From Planctomycetota bacterium (GTDB lineage Bacteria > Planctomycetota > Phycisphaerae > UBA1845): a DNA stretch of 64,000 nucleotides. This document shows positions 35,337 through 56,185 of this stretch, piece after piece; the stretch's first letter is position 1; each line of letters opens with the position of its first letter. The notes under the pieces were generated by a model that was not told the DNA's origin, ran no database searches, and was given only the letters and a program-made list of their open reading frames with translations. Made by a program: the position numbers and the translations under genes. The stretch lies in the NCBI GenBank assembly GCA_024276605.1, contig JAJRWX010000031.1, positions 1 through 64,000 on the forward strand, given 5' to 3'.

Positions 35337-36389
35337 CTACGCGGTGCGCTTTTGGATCGTATTCGGATCGCGGGCGGCTGTTAGCGCCGTGTCGTAGGTG
35401 ATTTCGCCACGTTGGTAAAGATCAAGCAACGTGTGGTCCATCGTCGTCATGCCATACTTGCGACCGGCTTGCATCTCCGTGTAAAGCTGGTGGATCGTGT
35501 TCTCGCGAATATGGTGCCTCACCCCCTGCGTTCCTACTAGCACTTCACAACAAAGTACCCGTTTATTTCCCTGCGCATTCAAATGAAGCTGCTGGGCGAT
35601 CACCGCCTGAAAGGTGTTGGCTAACATAAAACGTATCTCGCTTTGCTGTCCATCAGGAAAAGCCGACACAATCCGCTGGATGGACTGCACAGCATCCGGC
35701 GTATGTAATGTAGCAATGACCAGGTGACCGGTTTCTGCCGCCATCAGTGCCGTGTACATCGTATCACGGTCGCGCATCTCGCCGATACAGATGACATCGG
35801 GATCTTGCCGAAGCACGTGCACCAGCGCCTGTTGAAACGAACGAACATCAGTCATGACCTCTTGTTGAATGACTAACGCCCGTTGGGAATGATGTACATA
35901 CTCGATCGGATCCTCGATGGTAATAATCTTCTTACGACTCTCATGGTTGATAAGGTCGATGGCATAGTGAAGGGTTGTCGTTTTTCCGACGCCGGTTGGT
36001 CCTGTGATGAGCATCAGCCCGTTTGGACGGCGCACTATATCGTCAATCATAGCTGGCAGTCCCAGCGCCTCTCTTGACCTGACCTCACTCTCACTAAGAC
36101 GGATGGAAAGCTCCGGTGAACTGTTGCGGTAGTAGATCGTCACCCTGGCACGGTCATGATCGCCAAAGGCTAACGAGAAACATAACTGCCAATCGGATTC
36201 TAATCGTCTTCTCTTTTCCTCGTTAAGACACTCAACGGCCAGTGCATGAGCCACGTCAGCCGTGATGGCCTCGCCCTTAGCCGACACTATCTCTCCATCG
36301 ATACGAAACATCGGTGGAAGCCCCACGACGACATGGATGTCGCTGGCATGATGTTTGCGTCCGGCATGAATCAGCGCAAGTAACTTCAT
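35337..36389 (-). CDS. pilT: PilT-type retraction ATPase
   Basis: This is a 350-aa secretion-superfamily ATPase. The start is put at ATG 36389, which overlaps the TPR gene stop (ATGA) and has GGAGAAAGGG directly upstream. Motifs follow PilT order: ASDIHVVVGLPPMFRIDGEI, GPTGVGKTTTL (Walker A), ITIEDPIEYVH (Asp box), DVICIGEMRD (Walker B) and TGHLVIATLHT (His box). It ends with GVRHHIRENTIHQL (the family's AIRNLIRE region) and GMTTMDHTLLDLY. PilT powers type IV pilus retraction, but no pilus genes are near. It is the last gene of a seven-gene operon, so its target may be something else, including the membrane protein or TPR protein encoded upstream. Confidence 0.9.
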   Translation of the reverse strand: MKLLALIHAGRKHHASDIHVVVGLPPMFRIDGEIVSAKGEAITADVAHALAVECLNEEKRRRLESDWQLCFSLAFGDHDRARVTIYYRNSSPELSIRLSESEVRSREALGLPAMIDDIVRRPNGLMLITGPTGVGKTTTLHYAIDLINHESRKKIITIEDPIEYVHHSQRALVIQQEVMTDVRSFQQALVHVLRQDPDVICIGEMRDRDTMYTALMAAETGHLVIATLHTPDAVQSIQRIVSAFPDGQQSEIRFMLANTFQAVIAQQLHLNAQGNKRVLCCEVLVGTQGVRHHIRENTIHQLYTEMQAGRKYGMTTMDHTLLDLYQRGEITYDTALTAARDPNTIQKRTA

Positions 36390-37189
36390 CCCTTTCTCCA
36401 TCTACGCCACATACCGCTAAGACGCGTTAGTATCGGCGGGTTATCGGATAAAGCATCCATAGCAGATTGCGCCTCCATGTAATCCGGTCGCAAATCCAAA
36501 CATCGCTGGTAGCTGGTTTGCGCCGCAGAAACCAAGGCCAATGCCTGCTGACATTCGCCCAACGCAAACCAGGTGTAACCGTGCCCGGGTTCGAGTTCGA
36601 TAGCCTGCTTGAGATAGCCGAATGCGTTTGTCATGCGCTGATGGAAAGCATAAACACGCGCGATGATGACGTGGTCAAACCACTCAAAGGCTGGGTCGGC
36701 CATCGCCCTTTGAAAGCATTCCTCAAAATGTTTATCACCCTTGGCCAGCAGCGTTTCACCACGAACGATCCAGCGCCAAGGCGATGTTCCAGCCGCTTGT
36801 AGCGAAGCATCACTACAAGCCAATCCGGTTTTGTAGTCATGCAGACGTGTACAGGCCTGCGCTTTAGCGGCAAGTAGTTCACCCTGGTTTCGAAATAACT
36901 CGAGCGCTTTATCGCTCCAGACACGGGCCTCGTGGCATTCGTCTAGCTGTACAAGCATCTGCACCTGACCTACCCACGCCGTGATAGCCGTACGATCTTC
37001 CTTTAGCGCACGGGTGTACAATCGAAGAGCCGCATCGAATTTACCCCAGCGATATTCGGCGCGAGCTTGAGCCAGAAAGTCACTCGAGTCCTTTGCTTGG
37101 GATTGCAGTTCTGCACGCGACTCTTGCGACTCGCGCCGCTCCTCTTCGAATTCAAGATTGGAGAATCTTCCTGGCATGACAATAATCAC
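36386..37189 (-). CDS. TPR-repeat protein
   Basis: This is a 267-aa soluble protein made of about five or six tetratricopeptide repeats. Typical helices include AEYRWGKFDAALRLYTRAL, DECHEARVWSDKALELF, TNAFGYLKQAIELEPGHGYT and AAQTSYQRCLDLRPDYMEAQ. The charged N-terminus (EFEEERRESQESRAEL) precedes the repeats. The gene overlaps its upstream neighbour by an ATGA and its downstream neighbour in the same way, so all three proteins should be made together. As a TPR protein it most likely serves as an adaptor between the membrane protein and the PilT-type ATPase, which is inference from coupling. ATG 37177 is an alternative start. Confidence 0.8.
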   Translation of the reverse strand: MIIVMPGRFSNLEFEEERRESQESRAELQSQAKDSSDFLAQARAEYRWGKFDAALRLYTRALKEDRTAITAWVGQVQMLVQLDECHEARVWSDKALELFRNQGELLAAKAQACTRLHDYKTGLACSDASLQAAGTSPWRWIVRGETLLAKGDKHFEECFQRAMADPAFEWFDHVIIARVYAFHQRMTNAFGYLKQAIELEPGHGYTWFALGECQQALALVSAAQTSYQRCLDLRPDYMEAQSAMDALSDNPPILTRLSGMWRRWRKG

Positions 37190-38217
37190 TCGAGAGACCC
37201 AATACGAGATAATGGGCGTATGCGCAGTATGACGCGGCCAAGAATATCGTCGAGTGACACGATGCTCAATTCCCGAGCTAAAGCCCTAGGCACGTACCGG
37301 TTTTCGGGTTGATAAAAATTCCATTGTGCCACAGTTCTGAACACTGCATACTCTGTCTTACCGAGTGTAACGTCGTAGTCGCCGATCGGTAGTATACGCC
37401 CTAATGGCGCGTATCGTTCTTCCGGCTCCACGTCATTAACACTCAATACACCTTTCTTTAGCATAATATGATCACCCGGTACACCAACGACGCGGTTCAC
37501 ACCATACCCAGCCTCAATAATAATCCCGCCTACTATCAGCGTGTCAATCTGATACAGGACAATGTCTCCAGGTACATAAGTGGTGGGTCGAATCCATGCA
37601 CCTTCACACAAAAGGCCATCACCGTCCTGAATCACATCGCCTCCCGGACTATGCCTGATAGGCACGACCACTAGGAACCGGGAGCAAAACCAAACACCGG
37701 GTTGGTAGATGAAAAAGTTAAAGGATAGGAACACGATTAAGCCAAAGGCAGCGCGCATGAACAGCGTTTCAAAGGCGAGATTTGCTGCAAACAAAGTGAC
37801 TATGGCTAACGTGTGTACGGCGACCATACCCGACAGCATGAACCATGACCAATGCGTACCAATGCCCACAATCATAAGCATAAAGAACAAGAGCCATACA
37901 GACAGGAGCACGCGGCCCCACTGGCGGCGCCCTGTCTTGAGATGACCGAGGCCGGGAATAAACGACCAGCGTAGCGCACGATTGTCAATCGGTTCGGGAT
38001 TGATAACGCCCATGGAACGCCAGAGCTTACCGAAGTCCGGGCATAACAACCGCAGACGGTTTCCAGTGCGGCGAACAGTTGTGGCGGTGTTACGAGGTGA
38101 AGCACGCGGCGGTTCGATCACGACATCATCTAAGTCGAGCCGGCTGCCACAGCGCGCACAAAGCGATGCGCCCGGGAAATTCTCAAATGTACAACTCAAG
38201 CATTGCATGGCAGTCAC
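37186..38217 (-). CDS. Zinc-ribbon membrane protein with degenerate S26 signal-peptidase fold
   Basis: This protein has 343 aa. An N-terminal zinc ribbon (Cys6, Cys9, Cys20, Cys23; CLSC and CARCG) is followed by three or four hydrophobic segments (about 101-120, 124-146, 155-175). A C-terminal region has the S26 beta fold: VPGDIVLYQ (215-223) and NRVVGVPGDHI (241-251), matching the signal peptidase I boxes. The canonical SM catalytic pair is not found in IRHSPGGDVIQDGDGLL, and the usual Lys of KRVVGLPGD is Asn241. It therefore looks like an S26-derived protein that has lost, or changed, its active site. It is coupled by overlap to the TPR gene. Confidence 0.75.
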   Translation of the reverse strand: MTAMQCLSCTFENFPGASLCARCGSRLDLDDVVIEPPRASPRNTATTVRRTGNRLRLLCPDFGKLWRSMGVINPEPIDNRALRWSFIPGLGHLKTGRRQWGRVLLSVWLLFFMLMIVGIGTHWSWFMLSGMVAVHTLAIVTLFAANLAFETLFMRAAFGLIVFLSFNFFIYQPGVWFCSRFLVVVPIRHSPGGDVIQDGDGLLCEGAWIRPTTYVPGDIVLYQIDTLIVGGIIIEAGYGVNRVVGVPGDHIMLKKGVLSVNDVEPEERYAPLGRILPIGDYDVTLGKTEYAVFRTVAQWNFYQPENRYVPRALARELSIVSLDDILGRVILRIRPLSRIGSLE

Positions 38218-38235
38218 CCACCTTCAGAGCTATCG

Positions 38236-38445
38236 TCAGCTGGTCGTACCCTTTGTATGGGTATCAATACGTACTTCGCCCTCCGGCGCATAATAGTCCC
38301 CCGTGAGGTGACGTTCCTCCTCATGGCCAACTATCTTTTTAATGAGTTCTGCATATTCGATACATTGGGGGCCTTTCACGCCCTTCACCTCAACGGTCAC
38401 TTTTCCGGTCTTGCTGATAACGATTTCGAATTCCGGTTTGCTCAT
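38236..38445 (-). CDS. DUF2997 protein
   Basis: This is a 69-aa protein that fits DUF2997: EFEIVISKTGKVTVEVKGVK (two beta strands), GPQCIEYAELIKKIVG (helix with conserved Cys) and ERHLTGDYYAPEGEVRI. DUF2997 genes are often found beside DUF1257 and Ycf46-type AAA genes, as here. The gene has GGGAG 8 nt before the ATG and is separated by 17-18 bp from genes on both sides. The biochemical role is unknown. The short length and conserved Cys suggest a small partner or substrate of the neighbouring enzymes. Confidence 0.8.
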   Translation of the reverse strand: MSKPEFEIVISKTGKVTVEVKGVKGPQCIEYAELIKKIVGHEEERHLTGDYYAPEGEVRIDTHTKGTTS

Positions 38446-38462
38446 AGTTGTACTCCCGGTTG

Positions 38463-38915
38463 TTACAGGCGAACCCGCAGACGAACTGATTGATCAGCGA
38501 GCACTTCTTCATCTACGACATTGTAATTACGATGCTTCAGCTCAGTAACGAGTTTATGGTAGGCGAACTGCTGTATGATTCTGCCGGACACTTCCTCACC
38601 AATCTGTTTGAGTTGTTTTTTCGACTGCCCTTGTCCTGAAACACACACGGTACATCTACCACGATCATCTTGCCCAACCTCGATCGTGACACCCGCTTTT
38701 TGCACCACGATCTTCTCTGTTGGTGTCATGCTATCAGCTACGATTTCGCTGTTGGCGATCTCAGTTTCCACTTTTTCGCGGCTCGACTGTTTCTCTTCGT
38801 GCAATGTCGATCCCTGAACCGCGAATCCCATGCCTGTAACGGCACCCATGACTGCGGCTGATATGACCGGCCACGATGATACAACAATTGGGGTTAATAC
38901 GATGACTGCGCTCAT
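38463..38915 (-). CDS. DUF1257/Ycf35-like protein with hydrophobic N-terminus
   Basis: This is a 150-aa protein. The C-terminal part (QQFAYHKLVTELKHRNYNVV then DEEVLADQSVRLRVRL) has the form of the DUF1257 (Ycf35) C-terminus, and its place between DUF2997 and AAA genes supports that. The N-terminal 35 residues (VIVLTPIVVSSWPVISAAVM) are hydrophobic, which is not typical of cyanobacterial Ycf35 and suggests membrane association. The centre has VTIEVGQDDRGRCTVCVSGQ with a Cys-x2-Cys. It lies 32 bp after the AAA gene. The family assignment is moderate because it rests on the C-terminus and context. Confidence 0.65.
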   Translation of the reverse strand: MSAVIVLTPIVVSSWPVISAAVMGAVTGMGFAVQGSTLHEEKQSSREKVETEIANSEIVADSMTPTEKIVVQKAGVTIEVGQDDRGRCTVCVSGQGQSKKQLKQIGEEVSGRIIQQFAYHKLVTELKHRNYNVVDEEVLADQSVRLRVRL

Positions 38916-38947
38916 GGTATGGCTCCGTTTTTCCTCTGTTTGGGCGT

Positions 38948-40540
38948 CTAAATCTCCAGCTTCCGTCGTATTTGCGTATCTACTTCCTCATCCCTTCGCG
39001 CAGCAAGTCGAGCACGCCCATCCGACCAGGCACGGAGCGAAGAAATTTCCTCCGCCATGGTCCGTGACAACGGCACACTCGTTTTGATACTCTTCAGGAC
39101 ATCCTCCGAGTCCAACTCTTTTTCAAGATAAAAGGCATCGTACAACGAACTGATAACGGCTTCCTCGATTTCGGCGCCACTGAAGCCGTCGGCAGCATCG
39201 GCGAGCGCGGTTAAATCGAAGTTTGATGACTCGCGACCGCGCTTGCGTAAATGGATATTGAAAATCTCTCGTCGCTCTTCTTTATTGGGAAGATCAACGA
39301 AGAAAATTTCGTCCAATCGCCCCTTGCGCAGCAGCTCCGGTGGAAGCTGAGAAATGTTGTTAGCCGTCGCCATGACAAAGACAGGTTTGCTCTTCTCGCT
39401 TAGCCAAGTCAAAAAGGTGCTCATTACGCGGGCTGTCGTACCGCCATCCGTATTGGCCGACCCCTGCGAGCCGGAGAAAGCTTTATCAATTTCATCTACC
39501 CAGAGTACGACCGGGGCTATGCTTTCAGCCACCGATATGGCGCGACGAACGTTACTCTCTGAAGAACCAACGAGGCTCGAAAACATTCGACCCACGTCGA
39601 ACCGCAGCAGTGGCATGTTCCACATTCGGCTGACGGCTTTTGCACATAAGCTTTTACCACAACCCTGTACACCGATCAGAAGCACACCCTTGGGCGCAGG
39701 AAGCCCAAATTGCCTGGCCCGATCTGTGAATGCCAATGATCGACGGGTGAGCCAATCTTTGAGCCATTCCAACCCACCAACATCACCAACATCAGTACTC
39801 GATTCGTAATATTCAAGAAGCCCGCTCTTACGAATAATCTGCTGTTTCTCGGAAAAAACAACGGAAACGTCATCTAAGTTGAGCGTTCCATCATTGACGA
39901 TGGTTTTCGCAAAAACATTCTCTGCTTCCTGTAGTGTGAGTCCCAGCGCTGCTTGTATGAGTTGCTCCCGAGACTTGTCGTCAAGATTAATCGTCACGTG
40001 GGAACTGTCGGCTACATCTTGGCAAATACGCGTGAGAAGCTCGTCGAATTCTTCAACGCCCGGCAGGGGATAATCGATCACGCAAACGTCTTTCTCGAGT
40101 TCGGGAGCAATTTCCATGACTGGCGACGAAATCACAAGTGTCTTGTAGCTGTCGCTTAACGCATTGGCCACTTCACGCAATTTGCGAATCACCGCAATGT
40201 TACAATCTCGTTCGCGCATGAAGCTGTGAAAGTCCTTGAACAGATAGATAGCCGGCTCCTTGTGCTCGATCACGGCATCAAGCGCCTCGACGGGATCGGC
40301 GATCTTCTTGGCTTTGGGAGCCAATGAATCTGCGCCGGATTTACTAAGCCCGGCTGTCACCGACCAGCAAAAAAGCTGTTTTTTTCGACTGGTCGCGATA
40401 CCCCTAAGCTGCTGCTCAACACGACGCTCCTCCCAGGAAACAATATAAATAATGGGGTAGCGGGCGCGAATAAGGAGTTCAATCTCGTTCATCGAGGATG
40501 CGGGCGGTGAGGATTTTTCAGTTGTTACCTTCGACGTCAC
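38948..40540 (-). CDS. AAA ATPase, Ycf46 type
   Basis: This is a 530-aa AAA ATPase. The N-terminal 240 residues form the Ycf46-type degenerate module ([20 protein letters not shown] and [14 protein letters not shown]). The catalytic module has Walker A GVQGCGKS (290-297), Walker [10 protein letters not shown] (343-351), sensor-type MATANN, and the arginine-finger region [17 protein letters not shown]. It lacks an FtsH-like protease domain. Ycf46 is conserved in cyanobacteria and some plastids, with a proposed role in photosynthesis or inorganic carbon use that cannot apply simply here. The gene lies 27 bp after the radical SAM gene and 32 bp before the DUF1257-like gene. Remodelling of a partner protein is the expected activity. 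Confidence 0.9.
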
Positions 40541-40567
40541 CTCTCACTCCTCTCATGTCTGATTAGC

Positions 40568-41608
40568 TCAACCAAGTTTCGTACCTAGGGTAGCATCATC
40601 TTCGTGGCAGCACACGTCACCTACGATCGAAGCAAGTTCGGGAGTCAGATCGTGGCAGTAGATCCGTCCATCGGCCCCTATCGTGATCGATACATCCGCC
40701 GAACTTCGCAGATCCTTCGGTGCCTCATCCCATCGATGACCATCCATCACCACCGCATCTGCGAGTTTCATGTTCATGTATTCGATCGCTTGTTGTGCTT
40801 CGAGCTGCGTATTGAGCCGACTGATGGTCCGGTCAGTAGACGCCCGCGAACAAGGAATGTAACCGGTATACAACTGAAAAGGCACGGCAGGTAAATGTTC
40901 CAACATCCAATCGACCACTTTGCGGAAGCAACAATCAAAATGCCCGGGGATGAGCAGATGCCGTACAACAACGCTGGTCGATTGAGCAGCGTGCTCAATA
41001 TTGCGGCATACCATTTCCATGTATCGGGGAACGCCGGCTAGTTGCTTGGCACAACTGTTATGGCCAAACTTGAAGTCGGCTAGATACAATGTAACCACAC
41101 CATCAAGTAAATCAATAACCTCGGGTGTCATATACATATTACTGTTGATGACAAACGGTAAGGGTCGATGGGCAGCAGAGGCTATCGCGAGTATCGTGTG
41201 TAGGTGAAGGGTTGGTTCACCGCCGATCAAACTGATGGATTTCGCACCCGCATCTAAGGTTGCTTCGAGTTCTTCAGCTAACCGAGTCGGATCTATCCGC
41301 TCACCATATTCCGATCGGAAGCAATCGGGGCCTTCGTCACAAAACCGACAACGGAAGTTGCAGCCGCCTAAAAATACACGCAGGGCAGGCGCCAAAGTCG
41401 ACGCTTCATGAAGGCTGATATAACGCTTATAAAAGTACGAGTCAGCCCCGAGATGACATGGGCAAGAATCGTTTCGTGTACGATCCACACCGCACCGAAG
41501 CTCACAAAAATGGCAGCATTTTAGCATGGCCAAGGCTGCACTAGCGCGATCGTGGAGCGAATCGTTTCGTGGCTTGCAGGGATCGGAATTTGGATACGTC
41601 GCCGTCAT
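40568..41608 (-). CDS. Radical SAM protein (PflX/COG1313-like)
   Basis: This is a 346-aa radical SAM enzyme. The cluster motif is CNFRCRFC (Cys83, Cys87, Cys90), followed by ISLIGGEPTLHLHTI (the GGEP SAM-binding motif). A cysteine-rich N-terminal segment (CCHFCELRCGVDR, CPC; Cys31 to Cys51) precedes it, as in PflX-type putative pyruvate-formate-lyase-activating enzymes. The C-terminal region has two nearby Cys-rich points (GRIYCHDL and DVCCHED). The family generates glycyl radicals or modifies proteins. No glycyl radical enzyme is in the window. As the first gene of the seven-gene operon it may modify one of the encoded proteins. An ATG at 41527 (residue 28) is an alternative start. Confidence 0.87.
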   Translation of the reverse strand: MTATYPNSDPCKPRNDSLHDRASAALAMLKCCHFCELRCGVDRTRNDSCPCHLGADSYFYKRYISLHEASTLAPALRVFLGGCNFRCRFCDEGPDCFRSEYGERIDPTRLAEELEATLDAGAKSISLIGGEPTLHLHTILAIASAAHRPLPFVINSNMYMTPEVIDLLDGVVTLYLADFKFGHNSCAKQLAGVPRYMEMVCRNIEHAAQSTSVVVRHLLIPGHFDCCFRKVVDWMLEHLPAVPFQLYTGYIPCSRASTDRTISRLNTQLEAQQAIEYMNMKLADAVVMDGHRWDEAPKDLRSSADVSITIGADGRIYCHDLTPELASIVGDVCCHEDDATLGTKLG

Positions 41609-42058: not shown

Positions 42059-42619
42059 TCAGGTCTCATGGGTTTCACCCAAGGAAACATCACCCTCCCG
42101 TAGTTTCGAAATCTGCACGCTGGCGCACTGAACAAACATCTCAGCTTCAGCCCGCTTTGAAAAAACGCCCAGTATATCTTTTACTTCGCGCTCCTTCTTT
42201 AGAAAGATGACCGCCCCCAGCGGTGAAGGCTTTACGGCTACGCGCGTAATATTACCCCATGGGATGCTGATGGATTCTTTCTTGTCCAATCGCAACATGA
42301 GTTCGTCGGGTAGAACGGCAGCGAAGCGGCCATGACGAATCAAAATCAGATAATTGTAAACGATATATAGTGCCCAACCCGCACTACAAAGAAGAATCAG
42401 AATAGTGATGTATCGAGGCGTTGTTTGAAACACACCGAATGAGGTTGAGAAAATATAGACGTAGATGAACGCCGGCCAAAATAATTCACGCCAACGTGGA
42501 TGGCGACGCCAAATCCTTGAATGTTCATCATACCCTAGCCCACATTCGGGGCACCGATGCTTCGCAGGCAAACCACGGAGTGTATAACTACACCGAGGGC
42601 ATGACGTCAGTTGGGACAT
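42059..42619 (-). CDS. Zinc-ribbon membrane protein
   Basis: This 186-aa protein begins with a zinc ribbon (CPRCSYTLRGLPAKHRCPEC, Cys-x2-Cys at both ends), the form typical of many short planctomycete membrane proteins. Two hydrophobic segments (about 47-65 and 72-95) follow, and then a soluble C-terminal domain with IPWGNITRVAVKPSPLGAVI and KREVK-type strands that resembles a PH-like fold. The last 40 residues are charged. The gene lies 40 bp after the VOC gene on the same strand. Its function is unknown. Confidence 0.75.
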   Translation of the reverse strand: MSQLTSCPRCSYTLRGLPAKHRCPECGLGYDEHSRIWRRHPRWRELFWPAFIYVYIFSTSFGVFQTTPRYITILILLCSAGWALYIVYNYLILIRHGRFAAVLPDELMLRLDKKESISIPWGNITRVAVKPSPLGAVIFLKKEREVKDILGVFSKRAEAEMFVQCASVQISKLREGDVSLGETHET

Positions 42620-42658: not shown

Positions 42659-43030
42659 CTACGAGTCATACTCAACCAACTCGATCTCAATTCCGTCGGG
42701 ATCCAAGAAGTAGAGGTGCTTACCGGGATCGTACGTTTGCTCCGAATGCGGCTCAACGCCCATTTCTTTCAGCCGGTGTTTGATCGCATCAATATCATCA
42801 ACAACGAATCCATAATGATTCAGACCAACAACATCCATCCGCTGCTCAGCCCGACCAGGCACCTCAGCCTCCATGAGTGCGATGTACTGACGATCATCCC
42901 CGATATGCGCACCTTCAGCCCCGGATGCGAACTTTCCACGCCAGCGTACCTGAAAACCGAATATCTGCTGATAAAATGCCACTGACCGCTCCACATTCGA
43001 TACCGTGAGGTTCACATGCTCAAGAAACAT
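42659..43030 (-). CDS. VOC family protein (glyoxalase-like)
   Basis: This 123-aa single vicinal-oxygen-chelate domain has the glyoxalase/dioxygenase fold. It begins MFLEHVNLTVSNVERSVAFY, with the first metal histidine in HVNLTV. A second half, GLNHYGFVVDDIDAIKHRL, contains another His. The last strand LYFLDPDGIEIELVEY carries the C-terminal Glu typical of the metal site. ATG 43030 is chosen because AAGGAGATAGAG directly precedes it; the longer frame to 43099 has no domain character. The gene is divergent from the SufR-like regulator 130 bp away. The substrate is unknown. Confidence 0.88.
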   Translation of the reverse strand: MFLEHVNLTVSNVERSVAFYQQIFGFQVRWRGKFASGAEGAHIGDDRQYIALMEAEVPGRAEQRMDVVGLNHYGFVVDDIDAIKHRLKEMGVEPHSEQTYDPGKHLYFLDPDGIEIELVEYDS

Positions 43031-43160
43031 CTCTATCTCCTTATCATTAGGGCACTTACAATTGTATAAGCTACTACTTATTTTATTATATGTGGTCAAA
43101 TCATTTTGTCAAGCAAACTATTTCATAAATATACAGATTGCGTATATGATAGACTTCAAG

Positions 43161-43805
43161 ATGAGTGACATACCCCTATCAGATGCGAAAAAGCGACTGG
43201 TCGAAGTTCTTAAGCGAACTGGCGCCCATACAGCCTTGGAAATGGCAGATCGTTTGAACTTGACGGATGTAGCCATTCGTCAGCATCTACTTGCGCTCGA
43301 AGAACGTGGGTTGGTGCAGCAACAACGCACTCAACCGGAAGGTCGTGGCCGACCGGCTGTGCTTTGGAGCCTCAGCGATCTCGCACGGGGACTTTTTCCG
43401 GATCGACATGCAGAACTGACGGTGGGACTTATTCAGGCTACGCGACAGGCGGTCGGCGAGGATGGGCTGTCTCGAATCATAAGCGTTAGGACAGCCCAAC
43501 AGATAAAAGCATATCGGGAGGTCATCCCCGGACCAACGACACCACTTGGTGAACGATTACAGGCTCTAGCCGACCAACGCACGTTGGAAGGATACATGGC
43601 TGAGGTCGTGCCTCGTGGGTACGAAGGGTATCTACTTATCGAACATCACTGCCCCATCTGCGATGCTGCCCAAAGTTGCATGGGGTTATGCGAGGCTGAA
43701 CTGGAGGTGTTCCGTGCCGTCTTGGGTACGGATGTCGTTGTCGAGCGAATCGAGCATTTACTCAAAGAAGACCGTCGCTGCGTGTATCGAATAGCCCTGG
43801 CATGA
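43161..43805 (+). CDS. SufR-like helix-turn-helix transcriptional regulator
   Basis: This 214-aa protein has an N-terminal winged helix (LVEVLKRTGAHTALEMADRL and IRQHLLALEERGLVQQQ) and a C-terminal cysteine-bearing domain (HHCPICDAAQSCMGLCEAEL), ending with a further Cys in DRRCVYRIALA. This layout is that of SufR, the Fe-S cluster-dependent repressor of sulfur-mobilisation genes, and of related DeoR/ArsR-like proteins. No suf genes lie in the window. The divergent VOC gene is the nearest possible target. ATG 43161 is taken as the start; ATG 43146 is also in frame. Confidence 0.8.
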   Translation: MSDIPLSDAKKRLVEVLKRTGAHTALEMADRLNLTDVAIRQHLLALEERGLVQQQRTQPEGRGRPAVLWSLSDLARGLFPDRHAELTVGLIQATRQAVGEDGLSRIISVRTAQQIKAYREVIPGPTTPLGERLQALADQRTLEGYMAEVVPRGYEGYLLIEHHCPICDAAQSCMGLCEAELEVFRAVLGTDVVVERIEHLLKEDRRCVYRIALA

Positions 43806-51183: not shown

Positions 51184-52338
51184 TCAATCCAGCCACTGCT
51201 TCTTGTCTTTGAGTTTCATCGGAACGTATTCTTCGGTGAGGTAGGAAAGATTTTTGGAGATCATGGCTTCGACTTCCATCTTAAAGCCGTTGGAAATCAT
51301 CTTCTTAATTTCTTTTTGCCACGGCCTTTTGTTGGCGAACCAGGCATAGTTGGCTATTTGCTTGGCGCGCTTGACATCGTTGGCGTCGAGTTCGATCTTC
51401 ACATCGTCGCTCATGCCACAGCGGTCGTAATCAAAACTCGACACACCAATGAACTTCGCATCAGGGACAGCCATGCGCCGCGATTCGTAGGCTAGGTTGA
51501 TCGAGCCGTGCTTTATGACGGAGTAGATGTAATATCCCCACGGATCGTTATCGAGCAATACAAAAACCGGCAGCTTCAATTCCTCGTGCATACGCCTGAG
51601 CAATCGCCGCATACCACGCGCCGGCTGACCACCGCCGTGAGAGATAATGCAATCGTGCGTCTGCCAGAAACGATCTTCATGAAAACGCCGCCAGACCGTA
51701 TCTTTTTCAACGTGTAAAATAAACTTCGCTTTACATTTTTTGAACTGGATCATATCCGGCTCGCAGATACTAGGCACAGCGTACCCGGCACTACCCATCG
51801 CTGAGCAGTCCAACGTATTACCATCGTCAACCAGCGTAATCGGACCGGCGAGATTACCTCGGTTACTGGCGAAGACGTGTAACTCTTCCCGTAGTGTATC
51901 GATAGCGACTTCCAGGTCTTCGATAATCGGATCGGATTCGCTCTGATCGTCAAAGGTTTTTTCCTTGGTACCTTTGATGGTGTGTTTGCTCATGTAATAA
52001 ATCTGACGAATGCTAGCCGTCTTACCCATCTCGATCAGATCTTTACACTTCGAGCCGACCAGCATGGTCTGCATGAACCGCTTAGCCTGGCCATAGTTAA
52101 AAAAGTTGCGTGACTGTTTATTGTCACCCATCTCAACGTGGCGGGTTTTTTCGTTATAAGAAACATTGCTCAGCGAGCGCGTAGGAATAGCAATAGCCGG
52201 ATCCTGCTCCCGCTCAGCCATCTTGACAATGCTCAACGCAAGCTTCTCAAGCTGCGCTTTGGTATGAGCACCGCTTCGCTTGTTGTCACGCTTGGTTTTC
52301 TTTGATGATTGGGTTGTTTTGGAGGCCGAGCGTGCCAT
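51184..52338 (-). CDS. top6A: DNA topoisomerase VI subunit A
   Basis: This is the 384-aa DNA-cleaving subunit of topoisomerase VI, homologous to Spo11. The catalytic tyrosine is in ASIRQIYYMSKHT (Tyr115, the second Tyr). The Toprim metal ligands are Glu211 in HVEKDTVW and the Asp pair in LLDNDPWGYYIYS (Asp263, Asp265). A Lys/Ser-rich N-terminal tail precedes the winged-helix domain. Topoisomerase VI relaxes and decatenates DNA and is standard in archaea but rare in bacteria. Its start directly follows the stop of a small orphan gene. The B subunit is encoded 1.9 kb upstream on the same strand. Confidence 0.95.
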   Translation of the reverse strand: MARSASKTTQSSKKTKRDNKRSGAHTKAQLEKLALSIVKMAEREQDPAIAIPTRSLSNVSYNEKTRHVEMGDNKQSRNFFNYGQAKRFMQTMLVGSKCKDLIEMGKTASIRQIYYMSKHTIKGTKEKTFDDQSESDPIIEDLEVAIDTLREELHVFASNRGNLAGPITLVDDGNTLDCSAMGSAGYAVPSICEPDMIQFKKCKAKFILHVEKDTVWRRFHEDRFWQTHDCIISHGGGQPARGMRRLLRRMHEELKLPVFVLLDNDPWGYYIYSVIKHGSINLAYESRRMAVPDAKFIGVSSFDYDRCGMSDDVKIELDANDVKRAKQIANYAWFANKRPWQKEIKKMISNGFKMEVEAMISKNLSYLTEEYVPMKLKDKKQWLD

Positions 52339-54232: not shown

Positions 54233-56185
54233 TCACGACGTCCGCTTTCGCTTCCTTTTCTTAGCCTTGGTGGTCTTACTCTTCACTTTTTTATTCGGCG
54301 CATCATCTTCAAACAGCGCTTGCGACGGAGGAGTTTCTTCGTCCCGGTTTACTACGACGGTGTTCTCTAGCCCCAGGTCGTTACCTGGCTTGGCTTTTTT
54401 AACTACCCGGCCATGTTCATCGAATTCCATATCCGCCGCAGCTGTGTAGTTTTGCGATAGTACGATTAGCGATTTTCGAAAATCTTCTTTATTGAACGTT
54501 GTGATAGAACGCGTAGCTTCGACGACTTCATCAATGTATCTTGTGAACACGTCGCGGCGCTTGGTGAAGTCCGATTTTTTTTTCTTGCGTTTAAGCAGTG
54601 TACCGAGTCGTCGCGCGCACTCTGAGATGCCCAGTTTAATTTCCTTGCGAATCTCGTCGTAGTCAGCGATCGCTTCTTTACCCTCGGAAATAAACGGCAC
54701 CCACACACTCGCCATGTGAACTAAAATCACTAAAGGCCCACGCGGCAGCGCACCGGACGACTGCGGAATGGTGTAATTCGTCCACCGCGTTTCCAATACA
54801 CTCTTAAACGTACAACATGAACTTTGCTGATACAGAAGCGGCACACGGTTAGCGAAACGAATCACGCGGGCCTGGGCGGGTTCGTGTTTGCCGTTTTGTT
54901 CGTTATGATCCTCGTCGTGTTTATCGCGGCCTAAATCACCGCCATAAGCCAAACCTACCTCGATCTGAAACGGATTACCCCGATAGACGCTCGGCGGTCT
55001 GGTGCTCGCGGTGTAAAACTCCGCTTTGATCCCTTTTAGCAGACCTGTCAGAATGGCTTCCGCACCCATGGGCGAAAGACAATTCGTGGACGGTGCACGT
55101 AGTTTTGTTTCTTGCAAAACTTTGTAAAGTTTTTCAACAACCGGCGGCGTTAAGCCGTTGACCCAAGTCGCGGAAGTTACACCAGCCTTATGACACACAC
55201 TTTTCGCCACTGTCAGGCTAACCTGAGAAAACTCACTGGTCAAAAACGCGCCGAGCTTTTTTGCCGACGTCTCTTTGACCATTTTCATCATGGTGCCCAG
55301 TTCGATACCGTAAGGGTGGGGTTTAATCTCTTTGGTTTCTTCCGGAAGTTCTTCGATCCCGCGCGGCAAATTCAGCGTTGATCCAACCGGTGGGTGAAAA
55401 ACAAACGTCGCATGTGGATTGGCGATTGCGGTCAGTTCAATGTATTCGTCTACGCTTTGACGACCCTTGTTGTAACTAGCCACAAGCTCGATCGTGACTT
55501 CCGTGCCGTGGGCAAAATCCACCTCGATCGTTTCGTCTTTGATAATATCCGGGCGATTCTTTTTTGTATCGATAGCTAGCTTGTACAAGTGAGCCGCCGC
55601 TCGACTGGACGTGCGCGAGACAATGCGAATCGGTTTGCCGGTCGTAATTAATCCATACATCCCGGCTGCACTGATACCGATACCTTGTTGCCCGCGCGAC
55701 ATTTTTAGGCGATGAAACTTCGATCCGTACAACAACTTACCGAACACATTAGGAATCTGATTCTTTACAATACCCGGACCATTGTCGCGGATACGAACGG
55801 AAAAGCGGTCGCTATCCGTTTGCTTAACCCAGATTTCGATTTCCGGCAGGATGCCCGCCTCCTCACAAGCATCCAAACTATTGTCGACGGCCTCCTTGAC
55901 CGTAGTCAGCAATGCCTTACGTTTGTTGTCGAAGCCCAGCAAATGTCGATTCTTGGCAAAAAACTCTGAGACGGAGATTTCTCGTTGTTGCTTCGCCATC
56001 GACTCCGCCGTCGCACGGGTACGCATCTTCTTGCCGTTACCCTCGACAGGCTTACTCTTCGTTGACGCTATTTTTTTACCCACAGATGAGTTACTCCCGA
56101 TAGCTGGCGCTGAAAGCCCTTGGTTAAATCCCAAGGATAGTTGTGATGCCGTACCCGATTTCTCGACGAGGTTCTGTTCGGTCAT
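54233..56185 (-). CDS. top6B: DNA topoisomerase VI subunit B
   Basis: This is the 650-aa ATPase subunit of topoisomerase VI, a GHKL-fold protein. After a basic N-terminal tail the ATP site reads VKEAVDNSLDACEEAGI (Asn102), RDNGPGIVKNQIPNV (134 on) and SRGQQGIGISAAGMYG. The transducer domain includes RVIRFANRVPLLYQQSSC. The C-terminus is Lys/Arg-rich (KKVKSKTTKAKKRKRKRT). The gene diverges from dnaA, with about 420 bp between the two. Gyrase B is encoded 3.6 kb further on, so the organism has two unrelated ATP-driven type II topoisomerases. Confidence 0.95.
   Translation of the reverse strand: MTEQNLVEKSGTASQLSLGFNQGLSAPAIGSNSSVGKKIASTKSKPVEGNGKKMRTRATAESMAKQQREISVSEFFAKNRHLLGFDNKRKALLTTVKEAVDNSLDACEEAGILPEIEIWVKQTDSDRFSVRIRDNGPGIVKNQIPNVFGKLLYGSKFHRLKMSRGQQGIGISAAGMYGLITTGKPIRIVSRTSSRAAAHLYKLAIDTKKNRPDIIKDETIEVDFAHGTEVTIELVASYNKGRQSVDEYIELTAIANPHATFVFHPPVGSTLNLPRGIEELPEETKEIKPHPYGIELGTMMKMVKETSAKKLGAFLTSEFSQVSLTVAKSVCHKAGVTSATWVNGLTPPVVEKLYKVLQETKLRAPSTNCLSPMGAEAILTGLLKGIKAEFYTASTRPPSVYRGNPFQIEVGLAYGGDLGRDKHDEDHNEQNGKHEPAQARVIRFANRVPLLYQQSSCCTFKSVLETRWTNYTIPQSSGALPRGPLVILVHMASVWVPFISEGKEAIADYDEIRKEIKLGISECARRLGTLLKRKKKKSDFTKRRDVFTRYIDEVVEATRSITTFNKEDFRKSLIVLSQNYTAAADMEFDEHGRVVKKAKPGNDLGLENTVVVNRDEETPPSQALFEDDAPNKKVKSKTTKAKKRKRKRTS

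Follow-up and report, generated by a model that had tools for sequence, protein, structure and literature searches.

A conserved seven-gene cassette joining a Ycf46-type AAA ATPase, DUF1257 and DUF2997 to a radical SAM enzyme, a degenerate S26-like membrane protein, a TPR protein and a PilT-family ATPase

A stretch of 64,000 nucleotides from a Planctomycetota bacterium (contig JAJRWX010000031.1, assembly GCA_024276605.1; hereafter 'the window') contained seven genes in close succession on the minus strand, between positions 35337 and 41608. The seven open reading frames were verified base by base, which confirmed the strand and coordinates given in an earlier reading of the sequence (the original prediction), and the names of their products were supported by Pfam and NCBIfam matches. 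The same seven genes were found in identical order at 23 other loci. The features of this cassette were as follows:

40568..41608, minus strand: radical SAM enzyme (346 amino acids; PF04055, 2e-17)
38948..40540, minus strand: Ycf46-type AAA ATPase (530 amino acids; PF00004, 4e-30)
38951..38968, minus strand: C-terminal tail of the AAA protein, RRKLEI-COOH, a tail type seen solely where the AAA protein is linked to DUF2997 or to radical SAM
38463..38915, minus strand: DUF1257 (Ycf35-like) protein (150 amino acids; hydrophobic N-terminal stretch; PF06868)
38236..38445, minus strand: DUF2997 protein (69 amino acids; PF11211, 1.6e-13)
37186..38208, minus strand: S26-like membrane pseudo-peptidase (340 amino acids from ATG; a GTG start at 38217 is possible; PF10502)
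36386..37177, minus strand: TPR protein (263 amino acids)
37148..37168, minus strand: RFSNLEF, RFxxLE motif at the N-terminus of the TPR protein
35337..36389, minus strand: PilT-family ATPase (350 amino acids from the inner ATG; outer ATG at 36401; TIGR01420)

The genes were separated by 27 bp (radical SAM and AAA), 32 bp (AAA and DUF1257) and 17 bp (DUF1257 and DUF2997), while the distance from DUF2997 to the S26-like gene was 18 bp with the GTG start or 27 bp with the ATG at 38208; these four gaps fell within the 17–32 bp reported originally. Two ATGA overlaps had also been reported. One was present at the TPR/PilT junction, with PilT starting at the inner ATG (36389), but the S26/TPR junction was either GTGA, if the TPR gene begins at GTG, or an 8-bp gap, if it begins at the ATG at 37177. 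The latter start was favoured because the N-terminus that it specifies, MPGRFSNLEF, is conserved. The PilT protein exceeded the cut-off for TIGR01420 comfortably (390.9 bits against 319.1); the DUF1257 protein (PF06868, 22.3 bits against 22.2) and the S26-like protein (PF10502, Peptidase_S26, 23.2 bits against 22.9, and without catalytic residues) were barely above theirs. Scans for promoters and terminators gave results close to shuffle expectation and were not used as evidence.

Conservation of the gene set was evaluated by reading neighbourhoods in 294 genomes from the phylum of the host, together with an AAA-profile scan of named genomes. The full set, in the order radical SAM, AAA, DUF1257, DUF2997, S26-like, TPR and PilT and on one strand, occurred at 24 loci including the window, belonging to several families of Planctomycetota and to Verrucomicrobiota; ten additional loci of this type were interrupted by contig ends. 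A reordered six-gene set lacking the radical SAM gene (AAA-DUF1257-TPR-DUF2997-S26-PilT) was present in metagenome-assembled genomes (MAGs) of Chloroflexi (L103) and Riflebacteria (L111) and in two further bacteria (L124, L132). Pairwise protein distances were correlated across 22 loci (AAA-TPR 0.90, AAA-PilT 0.88, radical SAM-AAA 0.77), as expected if the seven proteins had been inherited together. S26 or transmembrane proteins from G052, G020, G108 and G212 were considered as further candidates and set aside, there being no cassette genes alongside.

The original prediction had allowed that the S26-like, TPR and PilT genes might seldom lie near the trio of AAA, DUF1257 and DUF2997, in which case two unrelated operons would simply have become neighbours. 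The core does occur alone in many genomes, as such a history would have it, but chance adjacency was rejected given the order retained at 24 loci and the sets in other phyla whose add-on genes were reshuffled yet still linked; the motif shared between the two halves also opposes it, and its probability is negligible. A single system, as originally proposed, is supported by the order and its rearrangements, the radical SAM genes encoded in trans, the PilT clade, the correlated divergence and the RFxxLE motif. Its distribution was broader than originally described, including Verrucomicrobiota and other phyla, with the core also on plasmids and relatives of the AAA protein on phages. Other Planctomycetota had loci with the trio only, and the genes were therefore divided into core and add-on. 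Two nested modules emerge from these comparisons of sequence: a putative core of radical SAM, AAA, DUF1257 and DUF2997, and a putative add-on of S26-like protein, TPR protein and dedicated PilT. A second arrangement in Planctomycetota (L035, L037, L047, L048, L050, L059, L061) comprised DUF1257-DUF2997-AAA followed by genes for a 310-residue coiled-coil-like protein and an 80-residue protein, with no Pfam match.

The AAA protein consisted of an N-terminal region without Walker motifs and a C-terminal module resembling CDC48-D2. Walker A (GVQGCGKS), Walker B (DEID), the sensor and the arginine-finger region were intact and invariant in A1; this is the motif set of an active unfoldase, and such activity is predicted. 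In the window its gene adjoins those for DUF1257 and DUF2997, and it was 43.7–44.5% identical, over 94% of its length, to AAA proteins on Pseudanabaena and Geminocystis plasmids, a comparison confined to cyanobacterial plasmid relatives encoded next to DUF1257/DUF2997. Within DUF2997, which was present in 44 of the 294 genomes (one genome, G238, had seven such loci), G14, G22, G25 and C28 were invariant among 29 aligned sequences. Structure prediction produced a hairpin and a helix (26–39) with C28 at the helix start, and an alpha-beta protein for DUF1257 (mean predicted local distance difference test score of 70 for each); neither model matched a known fold at E <= 0.001, nor were sequence relatives found in the PDB. 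Homology between DUF1257 and DUF2997 was considered and was unsupported (hhalign probability 9.5%). A tblastn search of plasmids with the window DUF2997 returned nothing, although annotated DUF2997 genes exist there; single-sequence searches are therefore too weak for this family.

The CxxxCxxC motif of the radical SAM enzyme (C83, C87, C90) was situated within its PF04055 domain, and further invariant cysteines were found towards the N-terminus (C32, C35, C39, C51) and at C186, C226 and C227. The N-terminal pattern is one that we take to be characteristic of PflX/COG1313-type proteins, and the enzyme is predicted to be of the activating, PflX-like kind. It resembles AmmeMemoRadiSam/PflX-type proteins in being activase-like with an N-terminal cysteine cluster, but it scored only 22.8 bits against TIGR04337 (cut-off 220) and no Memo or AMMECR1 genes were alongside. 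Its orthologues formed a discrete group, scoring 243 bits or more where other radical SAM proteins in the 294 genomes reached no more than 163, and were found in 21 genomes, 19 of which had DUF2997, compared with 25 of the other 273 (Fisher p = 7e-16, a value that ignores the relatedness of genomes). The exceptions were G145, where a rhomboid-radical SAM-AAA-DUF1257 series was ended by a contig edge (L252), and G214, a genome of 67% completeness. The radical SAM gene of eight genomes was on a separate contig without cassette neighbours; therefore, its link with DUF2997 is independent of adjacency.

An unrelated, NrdG-like radical SAM protein of about 200 residues (PF13353) adjoined the trio or the AAA gene in other lineages (six Planctomycetota loci, one Elusimicrobia MAG and one Anaeromyxobacter MAG) and on plasmids of Treponema, Paenarthrobacter, Paenibacillus, Rhodococcus and Bacillus. 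On the Treponema succinifaciens plasmid pTRESU01 (L211), an AAA gene whose product is 51% identical to that of the window has an NrdG-like radical SAM gene on one side and, on the other, contractile injection system genes (VgrG/baseplate). In cyanobacteria the gene adjoining DUF1257 and DUF2997 is fed7 (PMC4284462). Given both the radical SAM variants and fed7, an iron-sulphur (Fe-S) or radical partner is a recurrent part of the core.

Modification might be the central purpose of the cassette, with the radical SAM enzyme acting on DUF2997, at its invariant GxxGxxC, or on the AAA tail, the AAA protein serving as activase or chaperone, and the S26-like, TPR and PilT proteins localizing or exporting the product. 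No partner has a tighter tie to DUF2997 than the radical SAM enzyme, including in trans; two unrelated radical SAM subfamilies adjoin DUF2997, the glycines and cysteine of DUF2997 are invariant, and the AAA tail is found solely with DUF2997 or radical SAM. However, several trio loci had no detectable radical SAM gene nearby, cyanobacteria pair DUF1257/DUF2997 with the ferredoxin Fed7 instead (PMC4284462), signatures of a precursor peptide or of export were absent, and a PilT motor would be superfluous. This explanation is unlikely, if the foremost of the alternatives.

The cyanobacterial and plastid sets (Ycf46 or Slr0374, Ycf35, DUF2997 and Fed7) contain the same three families, partly as neighbours and with an Fe-S partner. 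They differ in having no S26-like, TPR or PilT protein, in having Fed7 where the window has the radical SAM enzyme (no Fed7-type ferredoxin was found in the window cluster), and in that chromosomal ycf46 (slr0374) lies outside the fed7 operon. Phenotypes of stress or carbon use have been described for mutants of ycf46 and fed7 (PMC4284462, PMC7496141). The cassette could, by extension, maintain Fe-S or redox functions under stress, protecting Fe-S membrane complexes. Loss of Fed7 confers sensitivity to three stresses (oxidative, metal and iron), and this ferredoxin binds a DnaJ protein (PMC4284462); the slr0374 operon is stress-induced (PMC7496141); and one cyanobacterial plasmid has the order GrpE-Hsp70-DUF1257-DUF2997-AAA. 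Furthermore, among Verrucomicrobiota the radical SAM/AAA operon was directly preceded by genes for an extracytoplasmic function (ECF) sigma factor and a 75-residue protein (L078, L080-L082, L084, L085, L087, L088, L091, L092, L094, L098-L101, L109, L131), and ECF control of the cassette is probable in this phylum. This role is nonetheless very unlikely, since the cassette has no ferredoxin or Fe-S assembly gene and both PilT and S26 would be left unexplained.

Relatives of the AAA protein (at least 80% coverage) occurred on mobile elements, with 645 plasmid records, largely conjugative and enterobacterial, and 41 phage records (PHROG 8638). A function in anti-phage defence would be consistent with this location, which DUF2997 relatives share, and with the scores of the AAA protein on IetA models and, weakly, of the radical SAM enzyme on pVip. 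Yet the likeness to IetAS/SgiAT AAA-protease pairs is one of AAA superfamily membership: the match is confined to the generic ATPase core (residues 272–506), and the cassette has no subtilisin partner, protease gene or effector gene. As the cassette is also ordered, chromosomal and widely conserved, defence is highly improbable.

The S26-like protein began with a zinc ribbon (C3, C6, C17, C20), present in most loci, and contained a near-invariant PPRA motif, a PGxG-type transmembrane region and transmembrane helices. Its C-terminal domain aligned to structures of Staphylococcus SpsB, which constitutes its likeness to bacterial type I signal peptidases; however, the positions of the catalytic serine (SMxPT box) and lysine (KRVxGxPGD box) hold other residues, and the peptidase-like domain was shortened or missing in L040, L043 and L124. 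An active signal peptidase was rejected on account of the missing serine and lysine. Loss of the catalytic residues and of the domain itself argues that the protein is a membrane scaffold and not a protease, judging by sequence. The membrane link and the degenerate S26 protein of the original prediction were both supported.

At 11 other loci a rhomboid-family gene was situated immediately ahead of that for the radical SAM enzyme, on its upstream side (L051, L052, L081, L084, L085, L088, L089, L093, L095, L096, L252); there was none next to the window cassette. The rhomboid lacked its catalytic serine and/or histidine in 10 of the 11, while L252 retained both. Several of these proteins end in R..RLEL-COOH, resembling the AAA tail.

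In phylogenetic analysis the PilT proteins of the cassette, with those of reordered loci among them, grouped as a single clade (local support 0.974) that excluded 18 other PilT paralogues of the same hosts, and they scored at least 519 bits where other PilTs in the phylum sample reached at most 438. Fifteen genomes had a PilT of the cassette type. Thirteen were cassette genomes (counting G145, whose cassette is split over contigs); of the remaining two, G115 had an AAA-TM-TPR-PilT variant including a transmembrane (TM) protein (L271, identical to L097), and G160 was 61% complete and cut. Core-only genomes had no such PilT. The protein resembles the PilT retraction ATPase in its homology over the full length, its score above the cut-off of TIGR01420, and the ATP-hydrolysis motifs and the AIRNLIRE-like IRE retraction motif retained, but differs from PilT of type IV pili in forming a separate, cassette-tied clade outside any pil operon.

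These retraction motifs might indicate an accessory of type IV pili or type II secretion, in which a dedicated pseudopilus would be taken apart or retracted by PilT, components of the machine would be recycled by the AAA protein and the S26-like protein would be a peptidase-derived scaffold. All cassette genomes searched carried PilB/GspE and PilC/GspF homologues elsewhere, and in two loci of Verrucomicrobiota (L082, L088) the cassette was followed by gspF-like and pseudopilin-like genes, as read by eye. However, such adjacency was seen in just these two of the loci read, PilT paralogues occur in nearly all sampled Planctomycetota while the cassette occurs in few, and S26 is like signal peptidase I and not prepilin peptidase; an accessory of this kind is unlikely.

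The TPR protein began with RFxxLE in 33 of 34 loci, reordered ones included. In Armatimonadota the same motif opened NHL-propeller proteins whose genes adjoin that of the AAA protein; it also opened zinc-ribbon/TM proteins encoded beside the AAA gene in Myxococcota and Omnitrophota, and the TPR proteins of Hydrogenedentota. Its frequency was assessed in the 50 lowest-ranked loci of the AAA scan, using frames of at least 90 residues that start between -25 and +60 bp of the AAA stop codon. Such a start was present at 31 of these loci, and 16 of the 31 had the motif within the first 22 residues; among 13,627 background starts it occurred at 8 (0.06%; p = 1e-39, a value that ignores relatedness, although the carriers span at least three unrelated protein types). 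The AAA tail, [RK]..[hydrophobic][ED][hydrophobic], was found in 48 of the 70 AAA proteins that were linked to DUF2997 or to a radical SAM protein and in 0 of 44 others, the pattern having been defined on the data in which it was counted. A DNA pattern search of the host genome for RFxxLE as a genome-wide client tag, with two spacings, produced no second convincing open frame.

In Myxococcota and Omnitrophota the motif, a zinc ribbon and a TM segment were combined in one protein encoded directly after the AAA gene, whereas the cassette divides them between the TPR and S26-like proteins. The shared motif suggests a union of the two halves of the operon, with the AAA ring perhaps tethered to the membrane under its guidance. 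The unit of Myxococcota type (L118, L119, L122, L123, L125, L130, L143, L146), in which the AAA gene is followed by one for a protein that has RF..LE motifs at its N-terminus, a zinc ribbon, and TM helices at its C-terminus, is probably the simplest form of the system.

The seven genes are best explained, tentatively and with somewhat less than even confidence, as a single machine for AAA-driven remodelling, tethered to the membrane, in which a dedicated PilT-type motor and a radical SAM enzyme take part. This draws on what was observed: the conserved set of genes and their order, the radical SAM gene found with DUF2997 in trans, the missing catalytic residues, a dedicated PilT clade and shared motifs. 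A hexamer of the AAA protein would use DUF1257 and DUF2997 as cofactors or adaptors, working with the radical SAM enzyme, and the S26-like scaffold, through its zinc ribbon, TM helices and dead signal-peptidase domain, would hold the complex at the inner membrane. The N-terminal RFxxLE peptide of the TPR protein may dock on the AAA ring or its adaptor; tethered in this way through the TPR and S26-like proteins, the ring could unfold or extract clients from the envelope or from membrane complexes. PilT, also at the inner membrane, would act on the membrane part, either directly or via a pilus or secretion platform. The radical SAM enzyme would modify or activate a component, the likeliest targets being DUF2997, with its Gly/Cys motif, or the AAA tail. 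That the radical SAM and AAA proteins act on DUF2997/DUF1257, and that PilT supplies force, was part of the original prediction and can still only be inferred.

Several observations weigh against such a machine. Eleven Planctomycetota genomes had the core trio with a close AAA protein and without S26, TPR or PilT; therefore, the add-on is dispensable for core function. The hosts also carry ordinary type IV pili or type II secretion, which the PilT could serve. The statistics for RFxxLE and for the AAA tail are uncorrected for phylogeny, the structural models of DUF1257 and DUF2997 are moderately confident and match no known fold, and the docking, direction of force, client and chemistry belong to the proposal and not to the observations.

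A wider generalization may be ventured by analogy with Derlin-Cdc48. Cdc48 is recruited by Dfm1, a Derlin that makes use of a short Shp tail (PMC8641752); Derlin, a rhomboid pseudoprotease, and Cdc48/p97 share with the cassette a Cdc48-like AAA protein, dead membrane proteases (S26-like in the window, rhomboid-like at 10 other loci) and short recruitment motifs. On this analogy, a widespread prokaryotic system for dislocating membrane proteins would recruit its Cdc48-like AAA through RFxxLE peptides on interchangeable partners (TPR, zinc-ribbon/TM, NHL), its dead proteases (S26-like, rhomboid-like) would recognise membrane segments, and PilT and radical SAM would provide force and control. This is unlikely. 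The cassette differs in having no ubiquitin and in showing no homology of adaptors, and the resemblance to Derlin-Cdc48 (PMC8641752) is one of design or function, not of descent.

The neighbourhood of the trio was already known in cyanobacteria, while the seven-gene extension and the motif appear to be new: no description of a radical SAM/S26/TPR/PilT extension or of the RFxxLE motif was found in the literature searched, which covered few subscription papers. Ycf46 and Ycf35 were named decades ago and, to our knowledge, their biochemical role has never been settled. Their placement in a larger, recurrent machine would make that role testable, and a radical SAM enzyme was shown to be a true partner even where it is encoded elsewhere. 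Two motifs, RFxxLE on the partners and the LE-type AAA tail, reduce the question of AAA binding to a simple peptide-binding test. If the machine does remodel membrane complexes, it would add to FtsH and Derlin-Cdc48 another design, one equipped with PilT.

Other genes in the window merit brief mention. Just upstream of the cassette (42059-42619, minus strand) was a gene for a zinc-ribbon protein with two TM segments, which matched no Pfam or NCBIfam family. A winged-helix regulator with a cysteine-rich C-terminus was encoded 1.4 kb upstream of the cassette (43005-43805, plus strand); by eye it resembled the SufR-type Fe-S regulator, and its Pfam matches were weak and of helix-turn-helix type. 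Type IIB topoisomerases (Topo VI) are mainly archaeal and plant enzymes. Both subunits, A and B, were encoded on the minus strand (51184-52338 and 54233-56185; PF21180/PF04406 and PF09239), adjoining genes that read as dnaA, dnaN and gyrB in this bacterial genome.

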